Shown: positions 2,697-56,461 of the stretch, piece after piece | Layout: every line of letters starts with the position of its first letter | Numbering within the stretch: the stretch's first letter is position 1 | NCBI GenBank assembly: GCA_023374045.1 | Contig: CM041780.1 | Span: 36,905,030 to 36,969,029 of the forward strand | Reading direction: 5' to 3' | Length of the DNA: 64,000 bases | Source: Limonium bicolor | Taxonomy: Eukaryota; Streptophyta; Magnoliopsida; Caryophyllales; Plumbaginaceae | Position numbers and translations under genes: made by a program | Notes under the pieces: generated by a model | Database searches by the model: none | The model's input: the letters and a program-made list of their open reading frames with translations, nothing else | Told to the model about the DNA's origin: nothing

Positions 2697-5600
2697 TGTA
2701 ACACCCCGCCCAAAGCCAATCGTGGTTATCGCAAAACTTAATAACTTAATCACAATGATCGCAGCGGAATAACTAACACTGGGACCTTGCCACGGTCTGA
2801 TCAAAAGAATATACCGAACTTTACAAATTTACAACACTTATCCAAATATACATTCCATCCAAAATGCCCACCAACCGAGTTTTGAGTATCTCAAGTGACA
2901 ACATAAACTTCCAACAGTTTTAAATATAAACAGACGGGTGCACATACGCAACCCGTGCTCAAAAATAAATAACCCATCCTAGGTCTAACCGCTCCTACTC
3001 TCGTGGTGTGACTTCATGGGCCTCTTACCTGCAAGTGTAAAACAGCCCCCAAAGGGGGTCAGCACGAATGCTGGTACGACCCTCTCGTGGCCCCCAAGCT
3101 AACGGGACTACGATGACTAATTGTCGATAGCATGGAAATTGATTAGATACACAATCATAATATGAAGTGCAATAAACAACCATCCACAGATGAACATACA
3201 TAGTTCACACATAAATGAATGACTCAAGCGTTCCCTTACCAAGTGGGTTAGTAATAACCTCCTCCAGATCTGATTCCACTTAACCTCAGTTCACCTTAAC
3301 TTACCTCAGTCTTAACCTTATCTTAAACTTAGTATACAAACCGTTTCTAGAATGGGAATGGTTGTATCTTATCTTAAACTTAGGATTTAGGTGATCCTAC
3401 CACACCATCTTAATGCCACCTACCTTGGACGGGAGTCCAGTGTAGCTGAGCCGGCAACCGACCCTAGGCAACAAGTCCGAAGACAAGTCCTTAAGCGGAG
3501 GGCGGATCTGATTCAGATACCGACCCTCTTTCCTTAGCATGCATGACCGAAGTCAGTCCCGGGTTCCTCACTCCCCCCTTAAGTTCTAGTTAGCGAAAAT
3601 CTTACAACCATGTGTTAGTTAAACCTTAACGGGTATTAACCAACGGACACCAATAATTAACTCCCTTTTCTTAACTCAATAAGTACTAAACTTAGTTAGT
3701 AACAATCTCAAGTCTCGCGGGTTAGTGTAAAGAAAACACATTCACAATGAGAACAAGTATAACCGGTTGCATGCTTTATCTTGTTTTAGTCATAGCAAAT
3801 AAACAGATAGCACACAAGCCGAGGGACACCTCGTTAGCAAGCAGGTCACAAGAAAGAATGTACCGTTCACCGTCGACTGTCGTTTGTTTAACCTTCTCCA
3901 GGGTCCCAATTCACAAACCTAAAACATTCATTCATCTTTAGGCCATTAGTTATTTGAACCTTACTTAACTCATTTAGTCCCTAAAAATTCCCATCCAATA
4001 CTCTCTTAAGTCCTTACCACTTAACCTTATAAACTTAACTTTAAACTTAAGGTTTATACTTACCTTAACTTAATTCCTTAGGTTCTTAGGTTCCTAATCA
4101 TTATTACCCTACTAATGGCATACCTTATTACCAATTAACATCTTTAGAATTTAAAATTTCTCTTTTTTTTTTGTTTTTGGCTCGACCGACCTTACCGACC
4201 GACCTTACCCAAGGTCGGTCCATTCCAGGACATATTACCGTTTGAAAATTTTACCCCGACCGACCTTGCAAGTCCGGTCCCCAAGGTCGGTCCATTCCCG
4301 AGAGTTTTCCCCGTGGAAAATCTAAGCTCGACTGACCTTGTCAAGGTCGGTCCCAATTTCGGTCGATTCTAGAGACCAATTCCCGTACAAAATTCTAGGC
4401 ATGACCGACCTTGTAAGTCCGGTCCCAAGGTCGGTCCATTCCAGAGACTCAATTCGTACACAAAATACAAGCCCGACCGACCTTGCAAGTCCGGTCCCCA
4501 AGGTCGGTCCATTCCAGAAAGTCTTTCCGGTAGTGTAAACTGAGTCGACCGACCTTGCAGGTCCGGTCCCTAAGGTCGGTTGGCTCTAGACCTTTGTTTC
4601 TAAATTCCCATTTGACTCCAAACTTCACCCCATATATCCTAGTATGTTCTAACCTCATTTGGGCACTTCAAATACACCTTAAGCCCTCCACTAAACTCAT
4701 TAAATCACTCACCAATATCCACCTTAGTCATTATGCATTTTCCTTATAATAATCTCAACACTTGTAATGTTTTTCACTAGGCTTCTAAGTGGTGGTTCAT
4801 ACCTATTATAACCACTATGCCAAAATGTTTCCTCACCACTATAACATCATCTCCCAAGCATCTTTCACCATCTAAAATTCCTTTATGCAACTACTTAAAG
4901 TTCCTACACAAGTTTATGCCTCCTTCTTCCAACACATTATTTCCTTCCTACTTGTTTACCAATATTTGCCTAATTCCTAAATACACAAGTATATCCCAAG
5001 ACATTCATTTGATTCCTAAATCCTCCATGATGATGCCTAAGTTATTCTAACTCATGAAAACACTTTAAACTCACCCTTCTTCATCAAAACGACTCCTAAA
5101 GTTTCTTAGTACTTCCTTAGTCATAAAATCTCCTTACACATCTTAAACACTTAGGTTCTTCACTAAATTTCGACATGGGTTCTCTAGTATATTATTACAC
5201 CAAAACATTTAGTTTTTCACCATCAAATAGCTATCAACATTCAAACTCTCATTAAACCTCCTTAGCACACATCATGCACCAAAACTACACTACATCACAA
5301 TATAGTGCATAAACTTAAATTGCTTGGCACTTAGGCCCTTAAATGACTTGGCTCTTAGGCCCTTAAATGCATAAATCTTAAACACTGAATTTCCTCAATA
5401 TATAGCCTTTGACCTAAAAATACACACAACAAGGCTCTCATTGCAATTTAAATGCTCTTATAATTCACCTTGACATTCCTAAACTACCTCCTTTTCTCAT
5501 TTGCTCCTTAGTCACAAGTTCACAAGTATAATAATTTTCTTTCTCCTAGGTTTTATAACCCTTTCCCAATGTAAACTCTACACTAAACTTATCACATATC

Positions 5601-6918
5601 TAAATCCCATTCCCTTAAACTATAAAACACCTCAAGGTAAGTAATTTACCTTGTTCTTTTACAAGCTCACAAACTTTCCTCCTTAGCCTTTTTCCTTGAA
5701 CAACCTCGGTCACCACTTAAACTCCCCTTGCCAATGTTCTAACCAATATCCAATGACTCTAATGAGTGCTAGATAATACATTAACCTTAAGGAACAAACC
5801 CTAAGTTAAAAATGTGCTTTAAGGTATTAAATTGATTGTTTTACCTTGGTCTTAGAATAGGCTTGGATATGAAGCAAGAAGGACCTCCTCTATCCCTTGG
5901 AGAATAGAAAACAAGCTAGAACAAGGCATAAACATGAAGCCCCATGAGTATAGATTTTCGGTTAGGAAAAATGGTGGAAACCTAGATTTTCTTACATATT
6001 CCTTACCTTAATAGAATGGAAAGCTATGAACTCCTCAAGCTTATTTTTCCCCTTCCATGGAGGTTGCACTTGGCACCGAATGAGCTCTTGGAGATTTGAA
6101 AGGATAGGAAGAAAGAGCTTGAGCTAACTAGAGATCTTATGTGCTTGGTTTGATTTTGGAGCTTAAATAGCAAGTAGTGGTCAAAAGAAGGTGGAGCAGC
6201 ATGAGGTTTCTTCTTACGTGAAAGAGAAAAAGAGAGCAAGAGAATCAGTGAAGAAGATGAAGAATGAAGAAAGTAGGAGAGAGGTGGTATAAATGAGATA
6301 TTTGATTTCCTTAAAAGCAATAGTAAAACCCACTTACTTTTCCTCTTTTTCTTCTAACATTAGTTGGCTACTCTTGGTGACTCACACCTTAGAAAACCGG
6401 CCCCCTCATTAATTAGGCTAGTTCATGGTCTTTTTTAACCAATTAATTAAACTTAGGTTGATTAAGACTAAACTAGGCACTATTTGATTACTATTCACAA
6501 ACTAGTGCACATAATTGTGAAATTTTTGATTTCCCATTAGTTAGACTGTCCTAATGTGATAATAATTAGTACACCAGTGAATTAAGAAGTAATCATGAGT
6601 ATTTAGCCACTTAAACCCCTTTCTAAACAAATTTTCAAAAATGTGCTTTAAGAGTCCTTAAAGCACAATTTTGGGTTTTAAACTTGTTTTTGAGCTTGGT
6701 TTCTTGGTAAGACTAAAATGACATTAGGATATTACTAAGGTCTTAGAATGATCTTTGGGCTCACCCAAGTCTCTCCAGCTTAGAGCACGTTTTTGCTTAA
6801 ACTGCTCTTTGGTGTTCCCTATGTTTCGATTAAAAATGTCTCTTATGTTTCTAAGGCAGTATTTAGCCTCCTATATCTGCTTATCACTAAACACCATACT
6901 AAGTTGGGGTAAGTTTCA
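2697..6918 (-). mobile_element. Y 3' LTR (4222 bp)
   Basis: In element orientation it starts TGAAACTTACCCC, directly after the polypurine tract, and ends GGGTGTTACA. It aligns along its length with 23881-28138, with scattered substitutions and small indels. Open frames inside it are short and not conserved between the two LTRs. An array of palindromic 72-bp units lies at 4181-4592. Confidence 0.93.
4181..4592 (-). repeat. Palindromic 72-bp array in Y 3' LTR
   Basis: About six units of 71-73 bp, each holding an inverted repeat of the type GACCGACCTT...AAGGTCGGTC around an inner AAGTCCGGTC, followed by a CCATTCCAGAGA-like spacer. The same array is at 25367-25778 in the other LTR. Read on the element strand it matches the B array at 43986-44392. 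Confidence 0.9.
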
Positions 6919-7231: not shown

Positions 7232-9925
7232 CTAGTCGGTAAACAAAGAAAGGTACTTCGACCTCATCTTATCCTCTAATTCCCACGTGGCCTCTTCGGC
7301 ATCTTGGTTAGACCAGAGAACCTTCACCAGTTGTACTGACTTATGGCGAGTGTCCCTAGTCTTACTATCCAAGATCCTCTGAGGAATCTCCACGGATCTC
7401 TTATTTGGTTCTAACATCAACCTCTCAGGTTCCAACACATGGGAGGGGTGGTGCATATATTTCTTTAGCTGTGAAACATGAAAAACATCATGCACTTTAC
7501 CCAGTTCAGCAGGTAAATTCAACCTATAAGCAACTGGGCCCACCCGCTCCGTAATCTCATAAGGACCAACAAACTTTGGGCTCAATTTGCCCTTCTGCCC
7601 AAATCTGAATACACCCTTCATCGGTGAAACTCGCAGAAATACCCGGTCACCCACTGCGAACTCCAGGTCTCGTCATTGAACATCAGCATATGACTTCTGC
7701 CTATCTTGAGCAGCTTTCATGTTCTCCCTGATTTGCTGAACTTCAGCCTTAACTTGATCTAGATATTCTGGTCCTATATGACCGTCTCACTCGACTCATC
7801 CCAGCAGAGCGGTGTATGACATGGTCTACCGTACAACGCTTGAAAAGTTGCCATCTTGATCGAAGCGTGATAGCTGTTGTTGTATGAAAACTCGATCAGA
7901 TGTAACTTGTCGATCCAACTACCCTGGAAGTCTAAGGCACATGCTCTCAGCATGTCCTCGAGTGTCTGAATCGTACGCTCAGTCTGACCATCTATCTGAG
8001 GATGGAACTCGGTACTCAGCTTTAGTTCTGTACCCAACGCTTCTCTGGTAGTTCTCCAGTACCTCGAAAGGAATCTGGTATCTCTATCTAACACTATGGT
8101 CTTCGGTATCCCGTGATGTCTCATAATTTCCTTTTCAAACAACTCAGCTAATTTGGTCACCTTCCAAGTATCCTTCATCGGTATGAATCGGGTTACTTTG
8201 GTAAGGCGATCCACCACCACCCATATCATGTTGAGACCTCCCCTAGCAGGTGGAAGTCCAACTACGAAGTCCATGGAGATATCATGAAACTTCCACTCCG
8301 GAACTGGCATCGGCTGTACCATTCCGCCCGGGCGTCGGTGCTCAAATTTCACCTTCTGGCATGTGAGCACCTCAAGACGAACTCGGTAACATCTGTCTTC
8401 ATCCCCGACCACCAGAAGTATCTCTTCATGTCTTTATACATCTTAGAGGCTCCCGGATGGATGGAAACTGAAGAACAGTGTGATTCTCTAAATATACGGT
8501 CTTTCAGATCCATGTTCCCCCGTGGTATGCATAACCGGCCCTTAAGTCTGATCAGATCATCGTCATGAAGTCTGAAGTCATATTTTTGACTTTCATAGGT
8601 ACCATCTGTCAGCTTCTGTCTGACCTCCCTCATGTACTCATCTGTCCTCTGAGCCTCTCACACCTCATCAACCAAGCTGGAGAAAGAAACTAGCGAATGG
8701 AGTGAGTGTGCTCGACGACTCAGGGCGTCCGCTACAACATTGGCCTTTCCCTCTTTGTATTGGAGGTCAATTTCATAGTCCTTCAGAAATTCTAACCATC
8801 TCCTCTGTCTAAGATTTAACTCCTTCTGAGTGAATATATATTTCAAGCTCTTATGATTGGTGTAGATCGTCACACTAACCCCGTATAAGTAGTGGCGCCA
8901 TATCTTCAAAGCGAAGACTACAACTCCCAACTCTAAATCATTTGTGGGGTAGTTCTCCTCTGTTTCTTCAACTGGCGTGAGGCATATGCCACCACCTTGC
9001 CATGTTGCATGAGCACGCAACCCAGCCCTCTGGCGGATGCATCACAGTAAACCTCAAAGCCCTCTGTACCGTCTGGAATAGTCAGAACCGATGCAGTGGT
9101 CAATGAGTCCTTCAAACTTTGAAACGAACTCTCACAATCAGCCGTCCACACGAACAGTGCATCTTTCTTCATCAGACTGGTCATCGGCTTCGCGACCTTG
9201 CTGAAATCCTTAACAAACCTCCGGTAATAACCTGCCAGACCGAGAAAGCTCCGGATGTCGGTAACAGTCTTCGGTCTTGGCCAAGTATGCACGACATCAA
9301 TCTTTGCTGGATCCACTGAGATCCCAACATCCGAAATGACATGACCTAGGAAAGAGACCTGGTCAAGCCAAAACTCACATTTGGAGAACTTAGCATATAG
9401 CTGGTTCTCCCTCAGTATCTCTAATACCCTCCTCGGATGTTCCTCATGTTCAACCTTCGATTTCGAATATATCAATATGTCGTCGATGAATACCACAACC
9501 GACTTGTCCAGCTGCTCCCGGAACAAGCGGTTCATCAGATCCTTAAATTTCGCCGGTGCGTTCGACAAACCGAACGGCATCACTGTGAACTCATAGTGGC
9601 CGTATCGTGTCCGGAATGCCGTCTTCTCAATATCCCCCTCTTTAATGGCTATCTGATGATACCCCAATCTGAGGTCAATCTTGGAAAACACAGATGCCCC
9701 CTTCAACTGATCGAAGAGATCATCAATGTGGGGTAGTGGGTACTTATTCTTCACTGTCACTGCATTCAACTCTCTGTATTCGATGCAGAGGCGGAGACTA
9801 CCATCCTTCTTCTTCACTAAGAGAACTGGCGCTCCCCATGGTGATACACTTGGTCTGATAAATCCCTTATCTAACAAGTCTTTCAACTGATCCTTTAACT
9901 CATTCATTTCTGCCGGAGCCATACG
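7232..9925 (-). pseudogene. pol: Y pol, 3' part: RT, RNase H, integrase, chromodomain
   Basis: This is the C-terminal two thirds of Gag-Pol, cut at its N-side by the CACTA element. From right to left: RT (about 9300-9920) with the core text [20 protein letters not shown] and the catalytic FIDDIL; RNase H (about 8700-9060) with FEVYCDASA and the ending ADALSRRAH; integrase (about 7774-8560) with an HHCC zinc-binding stretch, the DDE-type residues in SMDFVVGLP and LDRDTRF and the E in QTERTIQ; and a C-terminal tail with VLWSNQDAEEATWELED, the chromodomain-like ending of chromoviruses. Frameshifts lie near 8950, 8370 and 7780, and a TGA stop near 7675, where B has CGA or CAA. It would copy element RNA and insert cDNA; this copy cannot make the full protein. 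Confidence 0.92.
9923..9925. repeat. Left target-site duplication of CACTA (ACG)
   Basis: ACG lies before CACTAG at the left end and again at 20537-20539 after CTAGTG. A 3-bp duplication is diagnostic for CACTA elements. Joining the flanks reconnects the pol reading region around the PYRMAPAEM motif. Confidence 0.93.
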
Positions 9926-20150: not shown

Positions 20151-20154
20151 GAAA

Positions 20155-20515: not shown

Positions 20516-20519
20516 AAAA

Positions 20520-20536: not shown

Positions 20537-20539
20537 ACG

Positions 20540-21221
20540 GTATGGTGCCTTGGCTATTGGTGGGTACCAGGTAGCAGCTCAATGGTGAACTCTACCTCCC
20601 GCGTGGGTGGCGTGCCAGGCAGTTCCCGTGGAAACAGATCGGGGAACTCCGACACTACCGGTAAGTCAAGGTCGAACTCGGGGTCCCTCTCTATGTCCTG
20701 GACATAGCAGAGATATACTTCTTCCTTCCTCCTCAACTCCTTATACATTGCCATAGCGGTGATGATCTTAGTCGAAGGCTCTCTGGGCCTCTGGCGGTAT
20801 GATATTGTTACCCCAGATGGACTCCTGAGCAGCAGTCTATGCTCGGCGCAGAGGATACGACCCTTGTGCCGCTCCAACCAATTCATCCCAAAAATCAAAT
20901 CAAATCCCAACTCCTTAAACTCAATACAACTGACTGGAAAATCTTCCCCCTTAATTCTGACAATGGCTCCTCGGTTGTAACGAGTGCAACGAACCTTCTC
21001 TTTAGACGGGAGCGTAACCGTGAAGTCGGGTAGCTCATCCGCGTCTAGCCCCAACCTTCTTGGAAAAGATGCCGAGACAAAGGTATGCGAGGCCCCTGAG
21101 TCGAAGAGAACAGATGCCTCAATCCCATTAATCGGAAAGGTGCCGGTGAGGATAGTACCGCTGGCGTCGGCTTGTGCCTCTGTAAGTATGCTTAGCGCAC
21201 CTTCCGTACCGAGTCCATAAC
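20540..21221 (-). pseudogene. pol: Y pol, 5' part: aspartic protease and linker to RT
   Basis: The exon starts after the far splice acceptor (ACAATTAG, ending at 21222) and reads in frame from the gag exon 3 donor: the split glycine codon gives GYGLGTEGALSIL. Protease is at about 21060-21130 with the active-site text [11 protein letters not shown] linker with [20 protein letters not shown] leads to VVSEFPDLFPRELPG, the usual entry to RT. A one-base deletion near 20562 breaks the frame shortly before the CACTA insertion. The protease would cut Gag and Pol in the particle. B has the same region at 48724. Confidence 0.9.
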
Positions 21222-21379: not shown

Positions 21380-22119
21380 CTAATATTGTCTAAAAGTTTG
21401 GTTCAATCTCCCTGGTCTCATATGCGTCGCATTGATTACTGCTGATGGTGCTGTATTCAGCTTGATTCTCTTAATCCCATGGTATAACATCCTTGATTTT
21501 CCTCCCATAACTAATACATACCCTGACTTAAGTATTAGCTTATTAGCACGGTCTGCACGCTTCTGCTCGCCGTACAAGAATTCAGCGTCATCCCCAATGG
21601 ACCAAGACACTACGGGTATCCCCCTTTTGAGAGACTCCGTTGTCTCGTCCTTATCCTGATGTAGTCCAAGTCGCCCATCTTTCTCATAGAAGTTTACAAT
21701 ACAGATGTCCGCTTGTATGTCTGGAATCGGGTCAGCTTCCAACTGATGAGCGATCTCCACGACTTGTGTAATAACTGGATGGAACTCTTCGGGTATTCCC
21801 GGTGGTGAGACTCCATTTTGTATCCTCGTGGTTTGGTAGGTCTTGGCATACGGATTCCAATCCTTGCCAAAGCTCATCATCTTTAACTTCATTCTTGTTC
21901 CTCCTGGGTACTCCGGTGTATAGAAACCTCCCGGTCACACTCCTAGTTGACTGCATTTCCTGATGATGGCTATTTGTGCTGCTGGTGTCAGGTATCCCCT
22001 TAATAAAATCATACCTGGGCGGATAACCTGACATTGTTTGGTTGGAAAGTCTAGGGTTTCGATGTCGGTGTACTCCGGGTTAGGCGTTAAAGGCATTGGA
22101 TAGCATATGTTGAAGTTTC
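21380..22119 (-). pseudogene. AlkB-type Fe(II)/2OG dioxygenase exon in Y (one internal stop)
   Basis: This exon of about 246 codons lies between gag and protease. It starts after the near acceptor CACCTTAG (ending at 22120), in the phase of the gag donor, and ends at its own TAG (21380-21382) after QTFRQY. Known AlkB residues are present: HxD in LGLHQDKDE (His codon 21659-21661, Asp 21653-21655), the distal His in RMLYHG (21479-21481), and the two arginines of RLNQTFR that hold 2-oxoglutarate. AlkB enzymes oxidatively remove methyl groups from DNA or RNA bases; the substrate here is unknown. The text is closest to the bacterial AlkB/plant ALKBH1-like type, as far as I can judge from memory. 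One TGA (21936-21938) breaks the N-terminal part; the catalytic half is open from 21892 to the stop. By eye it is clearly similar throughout to the B copy. Confidence 0.88.
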
Positions 22120-22250: not shown

Positions 22251-22592
22251 CTGGCCTCGATGAGGGTTCAGGCTCATCGTCCCGGTCCACCATGTGTAGT
22301 GTGGGTCCCGACTTCTGGGCTACCCGTGGGTTCTTATCTGCAGCTTGCTGTACCCTTCTCTAATTGTCAGATCCAGCTCCCTGATCAGTCTTGCCCTTGC
22401 CCTTCAACTCGGGCCTAAAGGCTCTGCTAGCGGGGTTCCGGAAGCACTCGTATGCTTGGTGCCTGTATACCCCACAATAGTTGCACTCCACCTTGTTCCC
22501 CTTACAATCAAGCCCGGGGTGGTCCTTGTGACACCACTGACAGATGTAGCGTCGCTGGTAGCCACCACCGGCTCCCTTATCAGTCTCAGATC

Positions 22593-22672: not shown

Positions 22673-22925
22673 CCTTTGGCGCCCTTGAGCGGAGGGGCTT
22701 AGCTGCATATGCATACGTCAACTTCAGTGGCTCTTCTGGAGCCTTCTCTTTTTCCTCCTTCCCTTTTTGGTTCTGACTTTTCTGAGCTTGAGGCTGGTAC
22801 TTCTGTTTCTTGTACCCACCTTGCCCTTGGTTCTCCATGCTCTTACCGGCACTCTTCCTCTTAGCATTTTCCTCGTCCCTCATCTGGACGGTTATCTCAA
22901 CCTTAGCAGCGGCATGATAGCACTC

Positions 22926-23011: not shown

Positions 23012-23647
23012 CTGCAAGGTAGTATAGCTCATCGGCCCCATGCCGTAGCGGAGTCGATGGCTAAGCCCGCCATAGAAGCGGTCCACCAGTATCTGGTCTG
23101 AATATCCAAGACCTGGCAGAAGACAGAGCAAGGCGGTGAACTCTGAGTAATACTCGTCCACCGTCATCTTGTCGGTCTGCTTAAGCGCATCCAACTGCAA
23201 GCGCTTCTTCGTCTGGACATGGGCGGGGTAGTACTTTGCTCGTAGCAATGCGGTGTACTGCTCCCAGCCGAACTCTGGATTGGCCACATGCTCGGCCCTC
23301 ACCAGCTTCCACCAATCGCCTACCGCCCCTTTCAAGTAGAACGCAGCCAGGCGCACCTTGATCCCAGCAGGGACATCAAGGGTCTTGAAGGCGGTCTCCA
23401 ACTCAGAGATGTACGCCTCGAGCTTGGTGGGATCAGTCTCCCCCTTAAAATGTGCGGGTCGAAGGTCTGCAAGGCTCTTCACCCAATTTGGTTCCCGAGG
23501 CTGTGGCGGTGGAGGTGGTGCACCAACACCAGGCTGATAGCCCATATGCCCTAATGCGGCAGCCACGATCTCTTCGATCGTCTGCCCTTCCGGTATCTCT
23601 GAAGCGTCGCCGCCTCTGCCACGGCCTCAGCCTCTCCTTCCTGACAT

Positions 23648-23880
23648 CTGAACAATCACAACTCACATTAGGTTCGCATTCACCACTGTTTCGGTTAACG
23701 AATTATAACGTCCGTAGACGGAAAGACGATCCACACTAAATAGTGGTCATCTGACTCTACTCACTCTAACAGCACACACCCTTAACCCATCACTTATTTC
23801 TTAACTTATATCCTAACTCGATGGTCACTTATGTCCGGAATTTCTTGATCAGAGCGTAACTACGCTCTGATACCACTTTT
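23648..23880 (-). promoter_or_regulatory. Y leader with primer-binding site and hairpin
   Basis: The primer site TGGTATCAGAGC (minus strand, 23864-23875) is complementary to the 3' end of initiator-Met tRNA and lies 5 bases from the 5' LTR end. It forms one arm of a perfect 24-base inverted repeat at 23848-23871 (ATCAGAGCGTA and its reverse). Confidence 0.9.
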
Positions 23881-26800
23881 TGTAACACCCCGTCCAAAGC
23901 CAATCGTGGTTATCGCAAAACTTAATAACTTAATCACAATGATCGCAGCGGAATAACTAACACCGGGACCTTGCCACGGTCTGATCAAAAGAACATACCG
24001 AACTTTACTAATTTACAACACTTATCCAAATATACATTCCATCCAAAATGCCCACCAACCGAGTTTTGAGTATCTCAAGTGACAACATAAACTTCAAACA
24101 GTTTTAAATATAAACAGACGGGCGAACATACGCAACCCGTGCTCAAAAATAAATAACCCATCCTAGGTCTAACCGCTCCTACTCTCGTGGTGTGACTTCA
24201 TGGGCCTCTTACCTGCAAGTGTAAAACAGCCCCCAAAGGGGGTCAGCACGAATGCTGGTACGACCCTCTCGTGGCCCCCAAGCTAACGGGGCTACGACGA
24301 CTAATTGTCGATAGCATGGAAATTGATTAGATACACAATCATAATATGAAGTGGAATAAACAACCATCCACAGATGAACATACATAGTTCACACACAAAT
24401 GAATGACTCAAGCGTTCCCTTACCAAGTGGGTTAGTAATAACCTCCTCTAGATCTGATTCCACTTAACCTCAGTTCACCTTAACTTACCTCAGTCTTAAC
24501 CTTATCTTAAACTCAGTATACAAACCGTTTCTAGAATAGGAATGGTTGTATCTTATCTTAAACTTAGGATTTAGGTGATCCTACCTCACCATGTTAATGC
24601 CACCTACCTTGGACGGGAGTCCAGTGTAGCTAAGCCGGCAACCGACCCTAGGCAACAAGTCCGAAGACAAGTCCTTAAGTGGAGGGCGGATCTGATTCAG
24701 ATACCAACCCCCTTTCCTTAGCATGCATGACCGGAGTCAGTCCCGGGTTCCTCACTCCCCCCTTAAGTTCCTGTTAGCGAAAATCTTACAACCATGTGTT
24801 AGTTAAACCTTAACGGGTATTAACCAACGGACACCAATAATTAACTCCATTTTCTTAACTCAATAAGTACTAAACTTAGTTAGTAACAATCTCAAGTCTC
24901 GCGGGTTAGTGTAAAGAAAACACATTCACAACGAGAACAAGTATAACCGGTTGCATGCTTTATCTTGTTTTAGTCATAGCAAATAAACAGATAGCACACA
25001 AGCCGAGGGACACCTCGTTAGCAAGCAGGTCACAAGAAAGACTGTACCGTTCACCGTCGACTGTCGTTTGTTTAACCTTCTCCGGGGTCCCAATTCACAA
25101 ACCAAAAACATTCTTTCATCTTTAGGCCATTAGTAATTTGAACCTTACTTAACTCATTTTGTCCCTAAAAATTCCCATCCAATACTCTCTTAAGTCCTTA
25201 CCACTTAACCTTATAAACTTAACTTTAAACTTAAGGTTTATACTTAACTTAACTTAATTCCTTAGGTTCTTAGGTTCCTAATCATTATTACCCTACAAAT
25301 GGCATACCTTATTACCAATTAACATCTTTAGAATTTAAAATTTCTCTTTTTTTTTGTTTTTGGCTTGACCGACCTTACCGACCGACCTTACCTAAGGTCG
25401 GTCCATTCCAGGACATATTACCGTTTGAAAATTTTACCCCGACCGACCTTGCAATTCCGGTCCCCGAGGTCGGTCCATTCCCGAGAGTTTTCCCCGTGGA
25501 AAATCTAAGCCCGACCGACCTTGTCAAGGTCGGTCCCAAGTTCGGTCGATTCCAGAGACCAATTCCCGTACAAAATTCTAGGCATGACCGACCTTGTAAG
25601 TCCGGTCCCAAGGTCAGTCCATTCCAGAGACTCAATTCGTACACAAAATACAAGCCCGACCGACCTTGCAAGTCCGGTCCCCAAGGTCGGTCCATTCCAG
25701 AAACTCTTTCCGGTAGTGTAAACTGAGCTCGACCGACCTTGCAGGTCCGGTCCCTAAGGTCGGTCGGCTCCAGACCTTTGTTTCTAAATTCCCATTTGAC
25801 TCCAAACTTCACCCCATATATCCTAGTATGTTCTAACCTCATTTGGGCACTTCAAATACACCTTAAGCCCTCCACTAAACTCATTAAATCACTTACCAAT
25901 ATCCACCTTAGTCATTATGCATTTTCCTTATAATAATGCCAACACTTGTAATGTTTTTCACTAGGCTTCTAAGTGGTGGTTCATACCTATTATAACCACT
26001 ATGCCAAAATGTTTCCACACCACTATAACATCATCTCCCTAGCATCTTTCACCATCTAAAATTCCTTTATGCAACTACTTAAAGTTCCTACACAAGTTTA
26101 TGCCTCCTTCTTCCAACACATTATTTCCTTCCTACTTGTTTACCAATATTTGCCTAAGTCCTAAATACACAAGTATATCCCAAGACATTCATTTGATTCC
26201 TAAATCCTCCATGATGATGCCTAAGTCATTCTAACTCATGAAAACACCTTAAACTCACCCTTCTTCATCAAAACGACTCCTAAAGTTTCTTAGTACTTCC
26301 TTAGTCATAAAATCTCCTTACACATCTTAAACACTTAGGTTCTTCACTAAATTTCGACATGGGTTCTCTAGTATATTATTACACCAAAACATTTAGTTTT
26401 TCACCATCAAATAGCTATCAACATTCAAACTCTCATTAAACCTCCTTAGCACACATCATGCACCAAAACTACACTACATCACAATATAGTGCATAAACTT
26501 AAATTGCTTGGCACTTAGGCCCTTAAATGACTTGGCTCTTAGGCCCTTAAATGCATAAATCTTAAACACTGAATTTCCTCAATATATATAGCCTTTGACC
26601 AGCAAATACACACAACAAGGCTCCCATTGCAATTTAAATGCTCTTATAATTCACCTTGACATTCCTAAACTATCTCCTTTTCTCATTTGCTCCTTAGTCA
26701 CAAGTTCACAAGTATAATAATGTTCTTTCTCCTAGGTTTTACAACCCTTTCCCAATGTAAAATCTACACTAAACTTATCACATATCTAAATCCCATTCCC

Positions 26801-28138
26801 TTAAACAATAAAACACCTCAAGGTAAGTAATTTACCTTGTTCTTTTACAAGCTCACAAACTTTCCTCCTTAGCCTTTTTCCTTGAACAACCTCGGTCACC
26901 ACTTAAACTCCCCTTGCCAATGTTCTAACCAATATCCAATGACTCTAATGAGTGCTATATAATACATTAACCTTAAGGAACAAACCCTAGGTTAAAAATG
27001 TGCTTTAAGGTATTAAATTGATTGTTTTACCTTGGAGTCTTAGAATAGGCTTGGATATGAAGCAAGAAGGCCTTTTCTATCCCTTGGAGAATAGAAAACA
27101 AGCTAGAACAAGGCATAAACATGAAGCCCCAGGAGTATAGATTTTCGGTTATGGAGAAAAATGGTGGAAACCTAGATTTTTCTACACATTCCTTACCTTA
27201 AGAGAATGGAGAAGCTAATGAACTCCTCAAGCTTATTTTCCCCCCTTCAATGGAGGTTTCACTTGGCACTGAAATGAAGCTCTTGGAGATTTGAAAGGAT
27301 AGGAAGAAAGAGCTTGAGCTAACTAAGAGATATATGTGCTTGGTTTTGATTTTGGAGCTTAAATGAGCAAGTAGTGGTCAAAAGAAGGTGGAGCTAGCAT
27401 GGAGGTTGCTTCTTACGTGAAAGAGAAGAAAGAGATCAAGAGAAATTGGTGGTGAAGATGAAGAATTAAGAAAGGAGGAGAGAGGTGGTATAAATGAGAT
27501 ATTTTGATTCCTTAAAAAGCAAATAGTAAAACCACTTACTTTTCCTCTTTTTCTTCTAACATTAGTTGGCTACTCTTGGTGACTCACACCCTTAGAAAAC
27601 CGCCCCCTCATTAATTAGGCTAGTCATGGTCTTGTTTGACCAATTAATTAAACTTAGTTGATTAAAGACTAAACCAGGCACTATTTGATTACTATTCACA
27701 AACTAGTGCACATAATTGTGAAATTTTTGATTTCCCATTTATTTAGACTTCCTAATGTGATACTAATTAGTACACAAGTTAATTAAGAAGTAATCATGAG
27801 TATTTAGCCACTTAAAACCCCTTTCTAAGACAATTTTTCAAAAATGTGCTTTAAGAGTCCTTAAAGCACAATTTGTGTTTTAACTTGTTTTTGAGCTTGG
27901 TTTTCTTTGTTAATTGACTTAAAATGACCATTAGGATATTAATAAGGTCTTAGAATGATATTTGGGTGCTCACCCAAGTCTCTCCAAGCTTAGAGCACGT
28001 TTTTGCTTAAACTGCTCTTTTGGTGTTCCCTTATGTTTTCTTTGATTAAAAATGTCTCTTAATGTTTCTAAGGCATTATTTAGCCTCCTTATATGTTACT
28101 TATCACTTAAACACCATATCTAAGTTTGGGGTATTTCA
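23881..28138 (-). mobile_element. Y 5' LTR (4258 bp)
   Basis: TGTAACACCCCGTCC on the + strand to GGGTATTTCA. In element orientation this is TGAAATACCCC...GGGTGTTACA. It matches 2697-6918. No conserved open frame. A palindromic array lies at 25367-25778. A weak TATA-like CATTTATACC on the minus strand lies near 27490. Confidence 0.93.
25367..25778 (-). repeat. Palindromic 72-bp array in Y 5' LTR
   Basis: About six units of 71-73 bp with GACCGACCTT..AAGGTCGGTC inverted repeats; the counterpart of 4181-4592 in the other LTR. Confidence 0.9.
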
Positions 28139-42144: not shown

Positions 42145-45100
42145 TGAAATACCCGTAATTAAAAATAGTGATTAATTAGGCTAATGAATAATTTAGAAGC
42201 TTAATTAAGTATAAATAATCATGAGGGAACAAATCCCGAAGAAAATGGATCCTTAAAACGGATTAAAATCACTAACGAACCTTAAAGCGCGTTTTTCGAG
42301 GTAACCGGGAAAACGTGTCTTTAAGCGGGTCAAATAGACTCGTAACAATTTTGGTCAACTAAATAATCATTAATAAATATTAGTGAAGCTTTAGAACCAA
42401 TAAAACGGGAAATTAGTAAAAACTGTCAAAAACGGGAAGTTGTGGGGTAGAAGTGTAAATAACCAAAACTTATGTGTCCACTTTTAAAATAAAAAGTGAA
42501 GTTGTGTGTGTGTGCTAATACCAGCCGATGGCCCCCCCTCTCACACACTCTATTAATTCTTTTCATTTGCAAAAAGACAAACAAAATTAAAGCATAAAGT
42601 AAACTCCCTCACTCACATTCTCTCTCTCCTCTACCCATTCCCTCCTTCACTCACGTCTACACACTCATCCCCACTCTCTCATTTCTTTCCTCCTTTCCCT
42701 GCGACAGCCATGGAAGCTTGAAACAACTCACAAAAATGTCACCTTCTCTCCTCTTGTAACCCCCTCAAATCTCTTCCAAAAATTACAAAAACTACACCAT
42801 TGGAATCCTCTCATCAAGAGCTACGATTCTCTCTTTTCAAAATCCGGAAAAGAGCATTTTCGTTCTCATGAGTATACCCCATTTGGAGCTTGAAGACCAC
42901 CATTAGAACCACCGCATTCTCCTTGTTCTTGTGAGGTAAAAATCTCCTTGAAACTCCTTTGTTTTTCTAGCCTTAAGGGCAAAACGAATTTTAGACTAAA
43001 CCCTTGTTTGGTCCCTTGTGTTCTAGCCGATTTTGGCTTTGTTGGAGGAGAGGAAACATTGTTCTTGAGCTAACCCAAACAGCTCCTACACCCTTGGAAG
43101 GTAAAATAAATTCTAAACCCTAAAATCTACATTAGAACTCAAATAATGTTTAAGGTTAGTTTAGTATTGAAAATATGTATGTTGATGGGCTGTAGCCTTG
43201 GAGGTTTGGTTTGCAAACCGGTAGAGAGAGAGAAGGAAGGAAGAGAGAAGGAGCAAGAAAGAGAAAGAGGAGTCTAGAAGAGAAACAAGGTAAATTATAC
43301 TCTTTTATGTAGCCTTGTATATACATGTATGTAACAGATTTTTAGGAAGCTAAGATGAGTATTGTAATTAGTAGTGTAGTAATAGTGTAATGTGTAGGAG
43401 AACATAAGTATTTTGAACCTTTAAAAGACATTTAAAAACTATTGAAATTTTAATGGGAATTGAATGTAATGTGCAGGAATTTCTAATGTTGTTAGAGTGG
43501 TATTTGTGTATGAGAGATTGAGCATATTTGTATTGGATTTAAACAGGTGGAATAGATCATTTACATGAGTGAAACAATGTGGTGAGAATATAAGATTTCA
43601 GGGGAGGTTATGGCAAAATTTGTCTAGGATTAGAACACTTAATGAGTTAGAAACTAGGTGAATATGTAGGTTGTAACAGATTTTGATTGAGGAAGATAGA
43701 GGGTAAGTTGAGAGAGATAGTTAATGTAGTTATAATGTAGAAGAGGAGTGTAAGTGTTAAAATCTGTAGCATAATGCAACTAGAGAAGAAACTAGGTGAG
43801 TGTGGAAAAGAAACTTGGAAAATTATGTGAGTGAATTAGTATAGAATTGTGTAAGGAGTTAAGGAGTGAACTAGGGTGTATTAAGAGGTTTAATTAGTGT
43901 TAAAACATGTGGGATTAAGTGTAGGAACAATGGGGAAGTAATGGGTAAAAGAGAGGACTGAAAACAGAAATAAAAATGCAAATACTGGGCCGGACCGAAC
44001 TTGCGACCGGACTTGCAAGTTCGGTCGAGCCCAGATTTACAAAGACGGGAAAGCTTCTGGAATCGACCGGACTTGCGACCGGACTTGCAAGTTCGGTCGG
44101 ACCAGAAAATTTCCCCGTCTGAAACCTACTGGAATCGACCGGACTTGCGACCGGACTTGCAAGTTCGGTCGAGCCAGAAAAATTCCCCGATGAAACCTTC
44201 TGGAATGGACCGAACTTGTGACCGGACATGCAAGTTCGGTCGGCCAGAAAAATTCCCGTAATGCAAGCTACTGGAATGGACCGAACTTGCGACCGGACTT
44301 GCAAGTTCGGTCGGTCCAGGAAAATTCGGTAATGTGAGCTACTGGAATGGACCGGACTTGCAAGGTCGGTCGCAAGTCCGGTCCAGTCAAAAAAAAAATT
44401 ATTTAAATTAAAACATAATTATATATATATATATGTATACCCACATATATATATATGTACATGTATGTAAGTATGCCAACATTAAGTAAGAAAGTAAAAC
44501 TTAAGTAATGAAAAATAAGTAAGTAAAGTGTAAGTGTAAGAAGTATAAGGACATAGTAAGTAGGAGTTAAGTTGATGGTAGTTAGATTAATCATTCAATT
44601 GTATGTATATCTTAGGATTTGATTTGTGACACCGGAAGGACGTTTGGAAACACGTACGACGGTGAACGGTATGGATTCCTCATGCCCCGTATGCTATCTT
44701 GGTTACTGTGATTTGTGTGTTGTGTGCTAATTGATCACCAAATAAGATAAATACACGAATCGGAGTTATCATGTTTACTTGTGAATATGTAGTGCTGTAT
44801 ATTGTCTTCAAATTTAGTTTGTATAATTCATGAAATGTTTGGATGAATATGAATGTGTGCATGTATGTTGTATTGTATCGTGACCGATTGTGAATGTGAA
44901 TGGACTTCTAACTTATTCCCAACGAGCTAACCCGCATAACTTAAATTGGTAATTAAATTGGAATGAGTAGAAGTCCGATATAGTTTCGGCCACGCGTGAG
45001 GATGCGGAGTCACGAGAGGTTGGCTCCAATTCCTGACTCTTAAACTGGTCCGTGGCCCAAATCCCTTAAGTGGGTAGCATCCCGGATTGGTGAGTCAAGT

Positions 45101-45984
45101 AAATCCCGGAGGTGGGACGGCGTAGTCCCCAGGGCCGGAGGTCCCGACGACTTAACTTGAGTATGAGTAAGTAAGTAAGAATGAGTAAGTAAAGTAAATG
45201 GAAGTAAGTATAAGTAAGAAAAAGTAAGTAATGAGTAAAAGAGTAAAAGCATTCCGATTAACCCGGGTGCATAATTTGGCTAACCTTGTGAAGGTAAGTA
45301 TTGTGAGCATTATTATATTGTTGCCTTGGAATGATTAATGTACTGTGAATGAATGTATGTTGTATGCAAGCATGTATGTATGAAATAAATGAACAGCATG
45401 TTTAGTGGACGTCAAATAGTCGGCGTGCCCTAGCTAGCACGCGGTATATGTGGAGTTTATACGCAGCGTTTGCTGAGACCCTTGGGGCACCATTTTTACT
45501 ACACACAGGTACTCGGGAATGATGAAGATGTGAAGACTTAATTTTATTTCTTTATCTTCTTTTTGGATGTAAACACTGAATTATGATGGTGTACTGAGTA
45601 GTACATGGCTATAGCTTTTTGATTAGCCGGTGTACCATGGGGTACACCTTTTTGGATTTTGATAGAATGGGAATTGGTATAGATGAGTAGCTGGTAGAAA
45701 CTCACTCTTTTGGAACTTAGAAAGGATGTAATTGAATACACTTAAATACTCGGTGATCCAGGATGTAAGTATTTGACATATGATATTTTGGTAAGTAATT
45801 TAGTAGCTCGGTATATTATGTTCATCAGACCGTGACTGTAAGTAAGGTAAGCCTAGCTAGCCGTATGGGCGGTTAGCGGCGTTGTACCACCCACCGTAGT
45901 AAGTAGTAATATTTCCGCTGCGAACTCGTAGGATTAACAGGACGATTAGATGGTAAGCATGGGATTAACGGTTGGGGTGTTACA
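42145..45984 (+). mobile_element. B 5' LTR (3840 bp)
   Basis: TGAAATACCCGTAATT...GGGGTGTTACA; nearly identical to 52554-56452, so insertion was recent. A pyrimidine-rich leader (about 42605-42700) resembles a transcription start region. AT microsatellite near 44414-44455. The palindromic array is at 43986-44392. The open frames within are not genes. Confidence 0.93.
43986..44392 (+). repeat. Palindromic 72-bp array in B 5' LTR
   Basis: Six units of about 72 bp with the perfect 12-bp inverted repeat GACCGAACTTGC..GCAAGTTCGGTC around GACCGGACTT, followed by a CAGAAAAATTCCC..TACTGGAAT spacer. Homologous to the Y array. Confidence 0.92.
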
Positions 45985-46211
45985 AAAAGTGGTATCAGAG
46001 CGTAGTTACGCTCTGATGTCCATAGTACCGAGCATAGGGGATTACCGAGTTAGGATTTCAACCGTCTTAAGACGGATACTTAGAAACCTAACTAGGAACT
46101 ACCGTTGTTAACGACGGATACCCTTGACGTTCTTAGGAACGATACTTTGCTTAAATTCCAAGACCTTTGAGTCATATCTTGCGGATCCTAACGAAACTGT
46201 TAAATATTCAG
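45985..46211 (+). promoter_or_regulatory. B leader with primer-binding site and hairpin
   Basis: Primer site TGGTATCAGAGC at 45990-46001, five bases (AAAAG) after the LTR. A perfect inverted repeat at 45994-46017 (11-base arms, 2-base loop) includes most of it. Confidence 0.9.
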
Positions 46212-46875
46212 ATGTCAGGAAGAGGTCCAGGTCGCCCTAGAGGAGGGGGCAATGACGGACCCGGCGCGCAGACGATATCTGAGATCGTCGCCGCCACGGT
46301 AGCACAGATGCTACCACAAGTTATCCAAGCCGTGCAACAAACCCAACAGAACCAACAAACTCAAGCGGGGCCAATCCCTCCCCCGCCACCCAGAGAAGCG
46401 AACTGGGTAAAAGCTGTAGCGGAACTCCGCCCTCCCTGCTTTAGGGGCGAGAGTGATCCAGCTAAGCTCGAAGCCTACATCTCCGAGATGGAGACGGCGT
46501 TCGAAACCCTCGAAGCTCCTGCTGGAGTTCGAGTCAGAGTTGCTGCTTACTACCTGAAAGATGTAGCCATGGATTGGTGGAAGCTAGTCAAGCACGAGCA
46601 CGTCAATGACCCCACGTTCGATTGGGAGTCCTTTGCATCTCTCCTCCGTTCAAGTACTATCCGAGCATGTGAAAACTAAGAAAAGGCTAGAGCTGGACGC
46701 CTTTAAAATGACAGAGAAGATGTCTATTGACGAGTACTACCGCACTTTCACTTCTATCCTCCATCTCCTCCCTGATCTAGGATACACCGGCCAGGTGTTG
46801 GTCGATCGCTTCTATGGCGGTCTGAGCCATCGCCTTCGGTACGGTATGGGCTACACGAGATTTACCTCTCTTCAG

Positions 46876-46981: not shown

Positions 46982-47259
46982 GAGTGTTATCATGCGGCTT
47001 CTCGCGTTGAAATCACTTGCCAGTTAAGGGATGAAGAGACCGCTGAAGCGCAAAGCCAACAATAAAAACACCAGTACTGAGGAGCAGAACCAGGGGAAGA
47101 GCTAGAAAAATAAGAAGGGGAATTTCTTTCAGCAATCCCAAAAGAAATCCCCAGGTGAGAGCAGTGCCCATGCTGAGCAGGGCAAACCAGTTGAGCTTCT
47201 TCAGCTTGGTTATTCTGCACCGGTGGCAGCAAAGCCACTGAGATCACACCCACCTAAGG

Positions 47260-47342: not shown

Positions 47343-47687
47343 GTTCTAGCTCCGGTTCCGCCAAAACCTTCTCTGATGGCCGCACCTATGTGTGCAGGAA
47401 ATGAAACCAGGACCATCCTGGTAAGGACTGTTATGGGAGGGAAATCAAGTGCTATAGCTGCCAAAAACCCGGTCACACAGCCAATAGATGCCCAGAGAGC
47501 ACCAAACCAAAGGGGAACTTCCAAAACTACAAACAGAGGGAAGGCAAGGAGGTTGCATCTGGCGATGCACCGACCCAGCAGGCACCACAGGGACTGGGAT
47601 CCCAGGGACCTCCGCGGGGGGCACCTCAGAGGTAGCCTGTCCTTCATGTGATTGACCGTGATGGGTCCGGTTCTAAGTCCGGCCCAG

Positions 47688-48583: not shown

Positions 48584-48723
48584 ATTCATAGTATCATGTA
48601 ATCTATTAGTAACGTGTATTAGAGACACGGTATGTATGATGGTTGGTTTATCAATAAATAGCAGTGTTTATTTAATTCCACTTGTGTCCACCATCGATAC
48701 TTATCCAATTGTGAATCCAATAG
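48584..48723 (+). other. Stretch between AlkB stop and pol acceptor in B
   Basis: Noncoding; it ends in a pyrimidine-containing tract and GTGAATCCAATAG. The Y counterpart (21222-21379) ends GTGAATACAATTAG, so the acceptor region is conserved. Confidence 0.7.
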
Positions 48724-51700
48724 GTTGTGGACTCGGTACCGAAGGTACCCTGAGCATCCTCACCGAAGCACAAGCCGGCAGAAGCGGCACCATCTTAACG
48801 GGAACCTTCCCAGTAAATGGCATTGATGCCAATGTGTTATTCGACTCCGGCGCCTCTCACACTTTCGTATCACCATCCTTTGTGAAGAGGTTGAAGCTAG
48901 ATGCGGATGAGCTACCGAACTTCATGGTTACTCTCCCATCGAAGGAGCGAGTAAAGTGCACCAAATACTACCAATCAGCCACCATCGAAATCAAAAGTGA
49001 AGCGTTTCCCATTTCCTTCACCGAGTTCAATGGATTGGGATTCGACTTAATCATTGGAATGAATTGGTTGGAGCGGCACAAGGGTAGAATCCTCTGCGCC
49101 GAGCATCGATTGCTGCTCAAGAGTCCTTCTAGGGTTACTGTATCTTACCACCAGAGACCGAGAGAGCCTTCGACCACACTAATATCTGCTATGGCTATGT
49201 ACCGGGAGCTTAGAAAGAGCCAAGAAGTATATTTGTGTTATGTACAAGACCTGGAGAGAGATCTAGAGTTCAGTGATGAAGTACCCATTGTATCCGAATT
49301 TCCCGATGTATTCCCTAAGGAGCTACCCGGCATGCCACCACCGAGAGCAGTGGAATTTGAAATTGATCTATTGCCAGATACCGGTCCCATTGCCAGGGCA
49401 CCGTACCGCATGGCACCCGCAGAAATGACCGAACTAAAAGAGCAGTTAAGAGACCTTCTAGACAAAGGGTTTATACGCCCGAGCGTATCACCCTGGGGAG
49501 CACCGGTTCTCTTCGTGAAGAAGAAGGACGGTAGTCTCCGACTATGTATTGACTACCGTGAGTTAAATGCGGTCACAGTCAAAAATAAATACCCACTACC
49601 ATGTATCGACGACCTATTCGACCAGTTGAAAGGAGCCTCAGCCTTCTCCAAGATCGACCGCCGTTCAGGGTATCATCAAATCGCTATCAAAGAACAAGAC
49701 ATTGAGAAAATGGCATTCCGTACCAGATATGGCCACTACGAATTTACAGTGATGCCATTCGGTTTGTCAAATGCACCAGCTAAATTCATGGACCTCATGA
49801 ATCGATTATTCAGTGAGTAGTTGGACACTTCAGTGGTTGTCTTCATCGACGACATACTTGTACACTCCAAATCGGCAGAGGAACATGAAATTCATTTGAG
49901 GAAAGTGCTAGAGACACTGAGCGAGAACAAGCTGTATGCGAAGTTCTCCAAATGCGAATTTTGGCTAGATCAGGTATCATTCCTTGGTCATGTCATCTCG
50001 AGCGCAGGTATCTCAGTGGACCCTTCTAAGATAGAAGCTGTACAATCATGGCCTAGACCCAAGACTGTTACCGACATTAGGAGCTTTCTTGGTCTAGCCG
50101 GTTACTACTGGAGATTTGTAAGGGACTTCTTGAAAGTCGCTAAGCCCATGACTACACTGATGAAGAAAGATGCACCATTTGTATGGACACACGAGTGCGA
50201 GCTATCATTTCAGAGCCTTAAAGACTCATTTACCTCAGCGCCCGTCCTTACACTTCCAGAGGGCACAGAGGGATTTGAGGTATACTGTGATGCATCAGGC
50301 AAAGGAATGGGATGCGTACTCATGTAGCATGGCAAGGTTGTTGCTTATGCCTCCCGCCAGCTGAAAAAGCATGAGGAGAATTACCCGACTCACGACTTAG
50401 AGTTAGGAGCCATTGTCTTCGCCTTGAAGATATGGCGACACTATCTCTATGGGGTAAGCATCACCATCTACTCCGACCATAAGAGCTTACAGTATGTATT
50501 CACACAGAAAGAACTGAATTTGAGACAGAGAAGATGGATGGAATTTCTTTCAGATTATGACATCAACTTGCAGTATAAGGAAGGGAAGGCAAACATCGTA
50601 GCCGACGCCCTGAGCCGTCGAGCACACTCGCTCCATTCACTACTCGCTTCTTCTAGCTTGGTTGACGAGGTGCGAGACGCTCAGTTGAGCGACCCTTACC
50701 TAACCGAAATCAGACACAAGATCGAGAATGGTACATTCGAGAAGAAAAAGTATGACTTCAAGCTACATGAAGATGGTTTGATTCGGTTGAATGGCAGGCT
50801 ATGCGTCCCCCGAAGCAATGCTGAGCTAAGGGATCGCATCCTGCGAGAGTCACACTGTTCCACATTGTCAGTCCATCTGGGAGCCTCCAAGATGTACAAA
50901 GACATGAAGAGGTACTTCTGGTGGTCTGGAATGAAATCAGATGTGACGGAATTTGTATTGAGATGCTTAACATGCCAAAAGGTGAAATTTGAACATCGTA
51001 GACCGGGCAGAATGGTACAATCTATGCCAGTTCCGGAGTGGAAATTTCATGATATCTCCATGGATTTTGTTGTAGGACTCCCACCTGCCAGGGGAGGACT
51101 CAACATGATCTGGGTTGTAGTCGATCGCCTTACCAAGGTTGCCAGATTCATACCGATGAAGGACACCTGGAAGGTAGTAAAGCTAGCTGAGCTATTCGAC
51201 AAGGAGATTATCAGACATCACGGAGTCCCTAAGACTATAGTATCTGACCGCGACACCAGATTTCTTTTGAGATACTGGAGAGCTACAAGGGAAGTGTTGG
51301 GTACAGAATTGAAGTTGAGTACCGCCTTCCATCCTCAGACCGACGGTCAGACAGAAAGGACCATCCAGACACTGGAGGACATGCTTCGGGCATGTGCCTT
51401 AGACTTTCAGGGGAGTTGGTTAGATAAGCTTCATCTTATCGAGTTCTCGTATAATAATAGTTATCACGCCTCGATTAAGATGTCGCCTTTCCAAGCTCTA
51501 TACGGTAGACCTTGCCGTACACCCTTGTGTTGGGATGAGTCAAGTGAAGCGGTCATAATAGGACCGGAGTATCTTGAGCAAGTGCAAGCTGAAGTGCAGC
51601 AAATTCGAGCTAACATGATGGCAGCCCAAGATAGACAGAAATCCTATGCGGATGTGCGACAACGCGACCTTGAGTTTGTTGTGGGCGACCAAGTGTTTTT

Positions 51701-52102
51701 ACGCGTTTCACCTATGAAGGGTGTCTTCAGATTCGGCCAGAAGGGCAAGCTTAGCCCAAAATTTGTACGGCCGTACACTATCACCGAAAGAGTTGGATCC
51801 GTAGCCTACAGGTTAGCACTACCTGAGGACTTGGGGCGTGTCCATGATGTATTTCATGTGTCACAACTCAAGAAGTATATTGCTGATCCTTCTCACGTCT
51901 TAGAGCCCGAGAGACTATCCATCGAGCTGACTATGCGATATGTTGAAACCCCAGTGAGAATCCTGGAAGGAAGACCAGAGACACTCGCCATAAGTCTATA
52001 CGAATGGTGAAGGTCCTATGGTCAAACCATGATGTCGAAGAAGCGACATGGGAGCTGGAAGATGCCATGAAGGCTAGGTACCCACAGTTATTCATAGACT
52101 AG
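48724..52102 (+). pseudogene. pol: B pol: protease, RT, RNase H, integrase, chromodomain
   Basis: The exon begins after the far acceptor, in frame with gag exon 3 ([13 protein letters not shown]). Protease: [10 protein letters not shown] (about 48840). [28 protein letters not shown] (about 49845). RNase [12 protein letters not shown] to ADALSRRAH (about 50275-50630). Integrase: HHCC with [16 protein letters not shown] residues in [17 protein letters not shown] and QTERTIQ (about 50840-51560). C-terminus: [10 protein letters not shown], then in another frame VLWSNHDVEEATWELED, the chromodomain-like tail that can direct insertion to heterochromatin. Two TAG stops (49818, 50325; both probably CAG originally) and a frameshift near 51975 are the only breaks seen, so it is better kept than Y. 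Confidence 0.93.
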
Positions 52103-56452: not shown

Positions 56453-56461
56453 AAAAGTTAG
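56453..56461 (+). other. Junction between B and TRIM (AAAAGTTAG)
   Basis: The first five bases equal the B bases between LTR and primer site (45985-45989, AAAAG), normally removed from the cDNA end by integrase. TTAG then leads into the TRIM LTR. Confidence 0.8.

Follow-up and report, generated by a model that had tools for sequence, protein, structure and literature searches.

Why should a long terminal repeat (LTR) retrotransposon of a plant carry an enzyme of the AlkB demethylase family, and how could such a cargo be expressed from a position between its own genes? This question is raised by a stretch of 64,000 nucleotides from Limonium bicolor (the window; G000:C5:36905030-36969029 of a 2.92-Gb plant genome), which holds two diverged Ty3/gypsy elements, termed Y (minus strand) and X (plus strand). 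LTRs, gag and the order protease, reverse transcriptase (RT), RNase H and integrase identify both as Ty3/gypsy, and in both the order is Gag, CCHC zinc-knuckle exon, AlkB exon, protease, RT, RNase H and integrase. The presence of an AlkB-type (2OG-FeII_Oxy_2) domain, placed after the zinc-knuckle exon of Gag and before the protease, is confirmed, and the exon that encodes it is an alternative 3' exon which ends in its own stop.

In element Y, the AlkB exon spans 21380-22119 (minus strand), from the acceptor TTAG/GAAAC at 22119 (slashes mark splice borders) to the stop at 21380; these are exactly the borders proposed in an earlier note on this DNA, which had placed an AlkB exon between gag and protease. 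The assignment holds in a hidden Markov model search, as window:21380-21934:- matches Pfam PF13532 (profile positions 26-194 of 194, E=8.7e-39, above the cut-off), and all signature residues are found, namely H-x-D (LHQDKDE), the distal H (LYHG) and R-x5-R (RLNQTFR). Element X carries this exon in the corresponding position (47842-48583, plus strand; from translation, acceptor and tblastn). Both window copies are broken, Y by a premature stop near 21935 and X by an internal frame break. Among 42 copies, 29 were usable for counting catalytic residues (18 of these being score-chosen or window copies): the first H is kept in 28/29, D and the second H in 29/29 each, the first R in 27/29 and the second R in 28/28.

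The enzyme belongs, by its sequence, to the ALKBH1 type, and profile, tree and fold agree with the previous suggestion of an ALKBH1-like enzyme related to plant genes. A profile search retrieved the rice OsALKBH1 structure 5xeg with E=4.8e-83 and no ALKBH5, ALKBH2, ALKBH3 or FTO chain at E<=10, and identity to rice OsALKBH1 and plant ALKBH1C/D is ~45-55%. In trees, which held no ALKBH5/9/10 row, the element AlkBs are neighbours of plant ALKBH1C/D, and bacterial AlkBs branch outside both. The fold predicted for 184 residues of the exon (mean predicted local distance difference test score, pLDDT, 90.8) reaches template modelling (TM) scores of 0.91-0.93 to rice OsALKBH1 (5xeg/5xoi), ~0.80 to E. 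coli AlkB and ~0.50 to ALKBH5. An origin from ALKBH5 is ruled out by the profile result together with this TM of ~0.50 against 0.91 for OsALKBH1; a bacterial origin is not favoured, given the placement of bacterial AlkBs outside and plant genes beside the element AlkBs.

The exon is not confined to the window. Genome-wide, a degenerate codon pattern of the LHQDKDE type has 17,107 exact places (8653+8454), with 0 in the backwards control. A motif of the protease exon, blind to AlkB, has 11,343 places (5771+5572; <=2 mismatches, backwards control 0), and AlkB-coding sequence lies directly upstream in 20 of the 20 copies picked. These protease-motif copies were spread over the 100 exact matches listed, which all come from the initial 24 Mb of contig C1, and are not a genome-wide random sample. 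Several diverged lineages carry the exon: the main family (L011 and others), L009/L013, X-like and Y-like families, and L058/L059, the element context of the last being only glimpsed. Insertion of a host gene into two elements, which would have undone the earlier proposal, is ruled out by the 20/20 count, and the exon has a fixed place in many elements. As a separate observation, AlkB places are spaced regularly by 10.1-10.6 kb at G000:C1:1430340-1461717, 4328133-4348960, 7387137-7418973 and 497439466-497469727, as in head-to-tail elements sharing single LTRs.

How the exon is expressed can be read from four lineages (main, L009/L013, X and Y), in which the CCHC exon ends in CCAG/GTA, the AlkB exon runs from AG/GAA to its own stop and the protease follows an AG/G acceptor downstream. 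Of the 20 protease-motif copies, 18 retain a GT donor where the zinc-knuckle exon ends, and the phase of the acceptors agrees at 19/22 loci for AlkB and 21/22 for the protease. If this splicing is real, retroelement copies made from spliced RNA are to be expected, and such copies were found. Searches with sequence patterns that bridge two spliced exon ends (<=2 mismatches; 0 matches for each backwards control) located junctions between zinc knuckle and AlkB at 22 places (10 in X/Y-like families, 12 in the main family) and between zinc knuckle and protease at 21 places (X/Y-like families searched). Both choices occur in the X- and Y-like families, the main family having been searched for the AlkB junction only; 6 of the 43 junction places were read. 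In L052 and L053 intron 3 alone is missing and the knuckle is joined to AlkB, as it is in the X-like L054, which lacks introns 2 and 3. In the X-like L056 only the AlkB-bearing intron is missing and the knuckle is joined to the protease; L055 and L057 lack introns 1, 2 and 3 together with AlkB and retain the primer site and LTR end, and L021 lacks introns 1 and 2 and retains intron 3 with AlkB. These footprints show that both acceptors have been joined to the zinc-knuckle donor in vivo. Their rarity fits a genome that is usually the unspliced RNA. Behind the AlkB stop, 70-85 bases upstream of the protease acceptor, an AATAAA is found in 31 of 33 alignable copies (9 rows were dropped because the border motif failed) and in 19/20 protease-motif copies; in X this candidate poly(A) signal lies at 48653..48658 (plus strand), ~70 bases upstream of the acceptor.

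Purifying selection acts on the AlkB exon. The ratio of nonsynonymous to synonymous substitution rates (dN/dS) is 0.146 over 16 score-chosen main-family copies (120 pairs), whereas Gag gives 0.071 (7 copies, with a mean dS that has already reached 0.95) and the protease 0.097 (9 copies). Among the protease-motif copies 11 of 20 were usable, the remaining 9 having been dropped for frame breaks or indels, and their dN/dS falls with rising pair distance from 0.28 over 0.25, 0.20 and 0.12 to 0.08 (1, 11, 13, 2 and 27 of 54 computable pairs per bin, with dS saturated in the last). Between lineages, dN/dS is 0.04-0.09 over the core, where dS is saturated, and 0.05-0.13 over the second half, where X could be included and one pair was not computable. 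The dN/dS check across copies suggested in the earlier note thus yields constraint both within and between lineages. Between lineages, the segment that separates the AlkB acceptor from the first Met is constrained as well, with a ratio of nonsynonymous to synonymous differences (pN/pS) of 0.39 (core 0.22), which is what would be expected if it were translated within a fusion. Taken by its sequence signature, the pattern is that of a gene maintained during element replication and decaying after insertion.

We consider it fairly probable that in this Ty3/gypsy lineage the AlkB exon is either joined to Gag or skipped for Pol, and that Gag-AlkB enters the particle, where it likely strips methyl groups off packaged RNA and single-stranded complementary DNA (cDNA). 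The parts of this proposal that are directly supported are the domain, its fixed place in the examined copies, the copy number, the coding constraint, the one donor with two in-phase acceptors and the spliced footprints. Unspliced RNA would serve as the packaged genome. One splice choice would yield Gag-zinc knuckle-AlkB, ending at the AlkB stop and perhaps at the AATAAA behind it, the other Gag-zinc knuckle-protease-RT-integrase, and the Gag tether would place the enzyme next to template RNA or single-stranded cDNA. E. coli AlkB repairs 1-methyladenine (1mA) and 3-methylcytosine (3mC). The substrate is likely to be single-stranded DNA (ssDNA) or RNA, with 1mA/3mC-type lesions or N6-methylated adenines (6mA in DNA, m6A in RNA) as candidate target bases, because the enzyme falls into the ALKBH1/AlkB clade and ssDNA activity has been reported for its rice relative, which acts on 6mA of ssDNA in vitro (PMC10469495; statements drawn from this and the other articles cited refer to the parts of them available to us). 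By this analogy, we tentatively favour the cleaning of the element's own RNA and ssDNA over m6A erasure. A broader form of the proposal seems to us evenly balanced: exon choice may have turned a captured demethylase into a domain of Gag, whereby one donor would set eraser versus polymerase per Gag and every particle would be stocked to clean its RNA genome and the first DNA strand; this arrangement would date from an old capture and have persisted in several diverged lineages.

Several observations weigh against this proposal. The donor is lost in L039 and other sequence stands in its place at L036 (2 of the 20 protease-motif copies), and by the knuckle motif the donor is in phase 1 at only 14 of 22 loci, with 7 in another phase (through indels or a match to a different knuckle) and 1 without a knuckle. 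L009/L013 lack the AATAAA, and a main-family search for A-run ends behind it found 0 poly(A)-tailed Gag-AlkB retrocopies; with such retrocopies absent there, nothing but its position speaks for the AATAAA being used. The AlkB frame is unbroken in only 5 of the 20 protease-motif copies, one of which has its first iron-binding His changed. Neither the first His (10/11) nor the first Arg (9/11) is invariant among the 11 usable copies, as against a mean column majority of 0.85. Finally, rice OsALKBH1, the closest characterised relative, is nuclear (PMC10469495), which does not speak for a particle.

This last point leads to a different view, in which the enzyme acts in the nucleus on host DNA, removing 6mA or opening Polycomb-type chromatin and thereby weakening the silencing of the element or of its target sites. 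The nearest relatives, plant ALKBH1C/D and rice OsALKBH1, speak for such a role, as the nuclear rice enzyme combines its 6mA activity on ssDNA in vitro with an ability to counter Polycomb repressive complex 2 (PRC2; PMC10469495). AlkB is, however, spliced to Gag in the phase of Pol, which points to the particle, and we hold a nuclear function to be unlikely. Somewhat more doubtful is that the exon serves as an m6A eraser for element RNA that keeps this RNA out of stress granules, as proposed for an element of orchids. It has precedents in the Phalaenopsis gypsy enzyme, which demethylates m6A in vitro (PMC9289625), and in AtALKBH9B, which demethylates ONSEN RNA (PMC12786077). These precedents are of the ALKBH5 type, whereas the exon described here matches no ALKBH5 chain at E<=10 and its predicted fold is far closer to OsALKBH1 and AlkB (TM 0.91 and 0.80) than to ALKBH5 (~0.50).

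Alternatively, the exon could be mainly a switch, whose stop and poly(A) signal end a Gag-rich form so that Gag exceeds Pol, with catalysis being secondary. The Ty1/Copia element EVD makes a spliced, early-terminated shGAG for the same purpose (PMC8892269, PMC12786077); the present layout parallels that of EVD, whose splicing-coupled shGAG comes closest, among systems known to work, to the proposed route of expression (PMC8892269). A bare stop would suffice for such a switch, yet the 11 usable copies vary at only two of seven cofactor-site residues, the His and Arg mentioned above, and keep the other five unchanged, and the dN/dS of AlkB is of the same order as that of Gag and protease, though higher. 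A switch without much need of catalysis therefore appears improbable. That the exon is a dead passenger, a functionless host gene fragment carried along, is scarcely credible, as the broken window copies and the stops or frame breaks in 15 of 20 protease-motif copies are set against purifying selection within and between lineages, the fixed place in 20/20 and the lack of any stop within the matched stretch of 149 of the 150 top-scored copies (score-chosen out of 38,325 candidates).

Where did the enzyme come from? A pattern for host genes matched 21 places, 8 of which were examined; L058-L063 and L065 are one-exon AlkBs of the element type, and only L064 (C3:703000-704500) resembled a host gene with introns. 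L064 is the plant's own ALKBH1-like gene, with two intron breaks in its AlkB region (tblastn), one of them inside LHQ/D. The element exon has neither intron, and capture from spliced RNA is therefore likely on sequence grounds. L064 groups with the genes of other plants, so that a recent capture from the plant's own gene is not favoured. As the element AlkBs fall outside the whole clade of sampled angiosperm ALKBH1C/D genes (support 98/100), the capture looks old, or else the element copies evolve fast. A single capture for all element AlkBs is only moderately supported by the trees: as one group they receive 94/93 when P0001-P0005, which fall with or beside them, are included, and 89/57 without P0003, which is unplaced. 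A clade made of this genome's 9 element rows alone is rejected (approximately unbiased test, p-AU 0.0004), because P0001, P0002, P0004 and P0005 nest among these rows; other sampled DNA therefore holds related elements. A search of viral contigs gave three remote AlkBs (29-36% identity), which were left unused. The grass Paspalum notatum has 205-aa AlkB proteins (P0015, P0016, P0019 and P0020, with P0019 of 191 aa), one of them representing a cluster of 42 member sequences; they group with grass ALKBH1 genes and may point to another mobile carrier.

AlkB cargo is not without precedent among LTR retrotransposons. The Phalaenopsis element Gypsy_Pa_2799 (Tat/Ogre-like) carries a paALKBH5-like second open reading frame (ORF2) whose product is an m6A demethylase in vitro (Alvarado-Marchena et al. 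2022, PMC9289625), and the element is cited in a 2025 review (PMC12786077). Among the 121 plant genomes screened in the orchid study the domain was reported only from two Phalaenopsis (PMC9289625), and in the open PubMed Central literature (no preprints), as far as its articles were available to us, the Phalaenopsis element was the only AlkB-bearing LTR element found. The tentative remark in the earlier note that no such LTR retrotransposon was known is thus in part refuted, but the present case is set apart by its element lineage, by the clade of its enzyme, by the position of the exon and by how it is expressed. In common with Gypsy_Pa_2799, it is a plant Ty3/gypsy LTR element that acquired a plant AlkB-family gene, multiplied with it and conserved its cofactor residues. 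According to the available text, the orchid element has an ALKBH5-type enzyme in a separate ORF2, is 25 kb long, belongs to the Tat lineage and has a single gag-pol ORF, whereas here the enzyme is of ALKBH1 type, lies between Gag and protease ahead of a pol with a chromodomain-like tail, and is alternatively spliced to Gag. This looks like a separate acquisition of another enzyme clade with another expression route.

Other comparisons set further bounds. Rice OsALKBH1 (5xeg/5xoi) and plant ALKBH1C/D share fold and catalytic residues with the element enzyme, although ALKBH1C/D are host genes with introns (two breaks in L064), and in the tree they form a group that excludes the element AlkBs. 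As in the shGAG of EVD and BARE1 (Ty1/Copia), alternative splicing and an early end yield a Gag form besides Gag-Pol (PMC8892269, PMC12786077); in the accounts available, EVD and BARE1 have a short form that consists of Gag alone and a full form made from unspliced RNA, whereas in the present elements an enzyme exon closes the short form and splicing is needed for the Pol form too. Plant RNA viruses whose replicases contain AlkB domains (PMC9289625) are likewise RNA-based mobile elements that encode an AlkB themselves, but, by description, in another type of replicon and at another place in the polyprotein. New here is an AlkB exon with its own stop as alternative 3' exon; this and the apparently old capture were overlooked in the earlier note. 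AlkB capture by gypsy elements now extends to two AlkB clades and two types of element, which speaks for methylated or alkylated bases being an obstacle that plant retrotransposons meet repeatedly. A layout of exon choice, with both outcomes kept as DNA copies, offers a way to probe the role of an eraser inside a retroelement particle, and it also lets one ask how splicing could set Gag:Pol ratios in gypsy elements.

The remaining features of element Y all lie on the minus strand. Its 5' LTR (23881..28138) and 3' LTR (2697..6918) are a 96% self-match with a Kimura two-parameter (K2P) distance of 0.039. The primer-binding site TGGTATCAGAGC (23864..23875, read from sequence) is one that we take to be of the initiator-Met tRNA type. 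Exon 1, the Gag capsid region (23012..23647; PF03732 E=1.9e-16, PF19259), has a stop near its start and the donor CAG/GTAATG; exon 2, the end of Gag (22673..22925), was read from sequence with acceptor AG/GAGTGC and donor AAAGG/GTA, and its borders are supported by the precise absence of introns 1 and 2 from L055 and L057. Exon 3, the CCHC zinc knuckle (22251..22592), bears the shared phase-1 donor GGCCAG/GTACTG and, in this copy, a stop. Beyond the AlkB exon, exon 5 starts with the protease (20537..21221; PF08284 E=4e-25, acceptor AATTAG/GTTATGG) and resumes past a CACTA insert at 9925 with a broken RT/RNase H/integrase part (7774..9925; RVT_1 E=1e-35, rve E=1e-4, below its cut-off).

Element X (plus strand) is delimited by a 5' LTR at 42145..45990 and a 3' LTR at 52554..56458 (match limits; 97% match, K2P 0.012), with the primer-binding site directly after the 5' LTR at 45990-46001. 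Exon 1, Gag (46212..46875), has the donor TTCAG/GTAAAT, the Ty3_capsid match of its first part being below the cut-off; exon 2 (46982..47259) was read from sequence, and exon 3, the CCHC knuckle (47343..47687), has the shared donor GGCCCAG/GTAATT. Exon 5 (48724..52125) holds protease, RT, RNase H, integrase and a tail (PF08284, PF00078, PF17917, PF17921, PF24626), with frame breaks. By reading, since it lies outside the profile scan, this tail resembles a chromodomain-like stretch that follows the integrase in L011 (PF00385 E=2.4e-4, 21.4 bits, below the Pfam cut-off of 25.1), and by these sequence features the lineage is likely, though not securely, a chromovirus. A Tat/Ogre assignment was rejected, as the 825-aa frame of L011, the one copy scanned, has one RNase H region followed by the integrase zinc domain, and no second RNase H.

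Three introns divide the region from gag to protease (20554-23647; 46212-48724) and are retained in most copies read; a review describes introns as exceptional in plant LTR elements (PMC12786077, in the part available). The long LTRs (~4 kb) contain tandem repeats of ~72 bases, at 43993-44395 and 54435-54839 in X and at 4175-4590 and 25362-25774 in Y. The pol of Y is interrupted by a CACTA-type DNA transposon (9926-20536) with the ends CACTAG... and ...CTAGTG, a tnp2 transposase (PF02992 E=3.1e-93) at 13890-15575 and a Transpos_assoc domain at 13047-13814, whose insertion likely caused a 3-base duplication, ACG.
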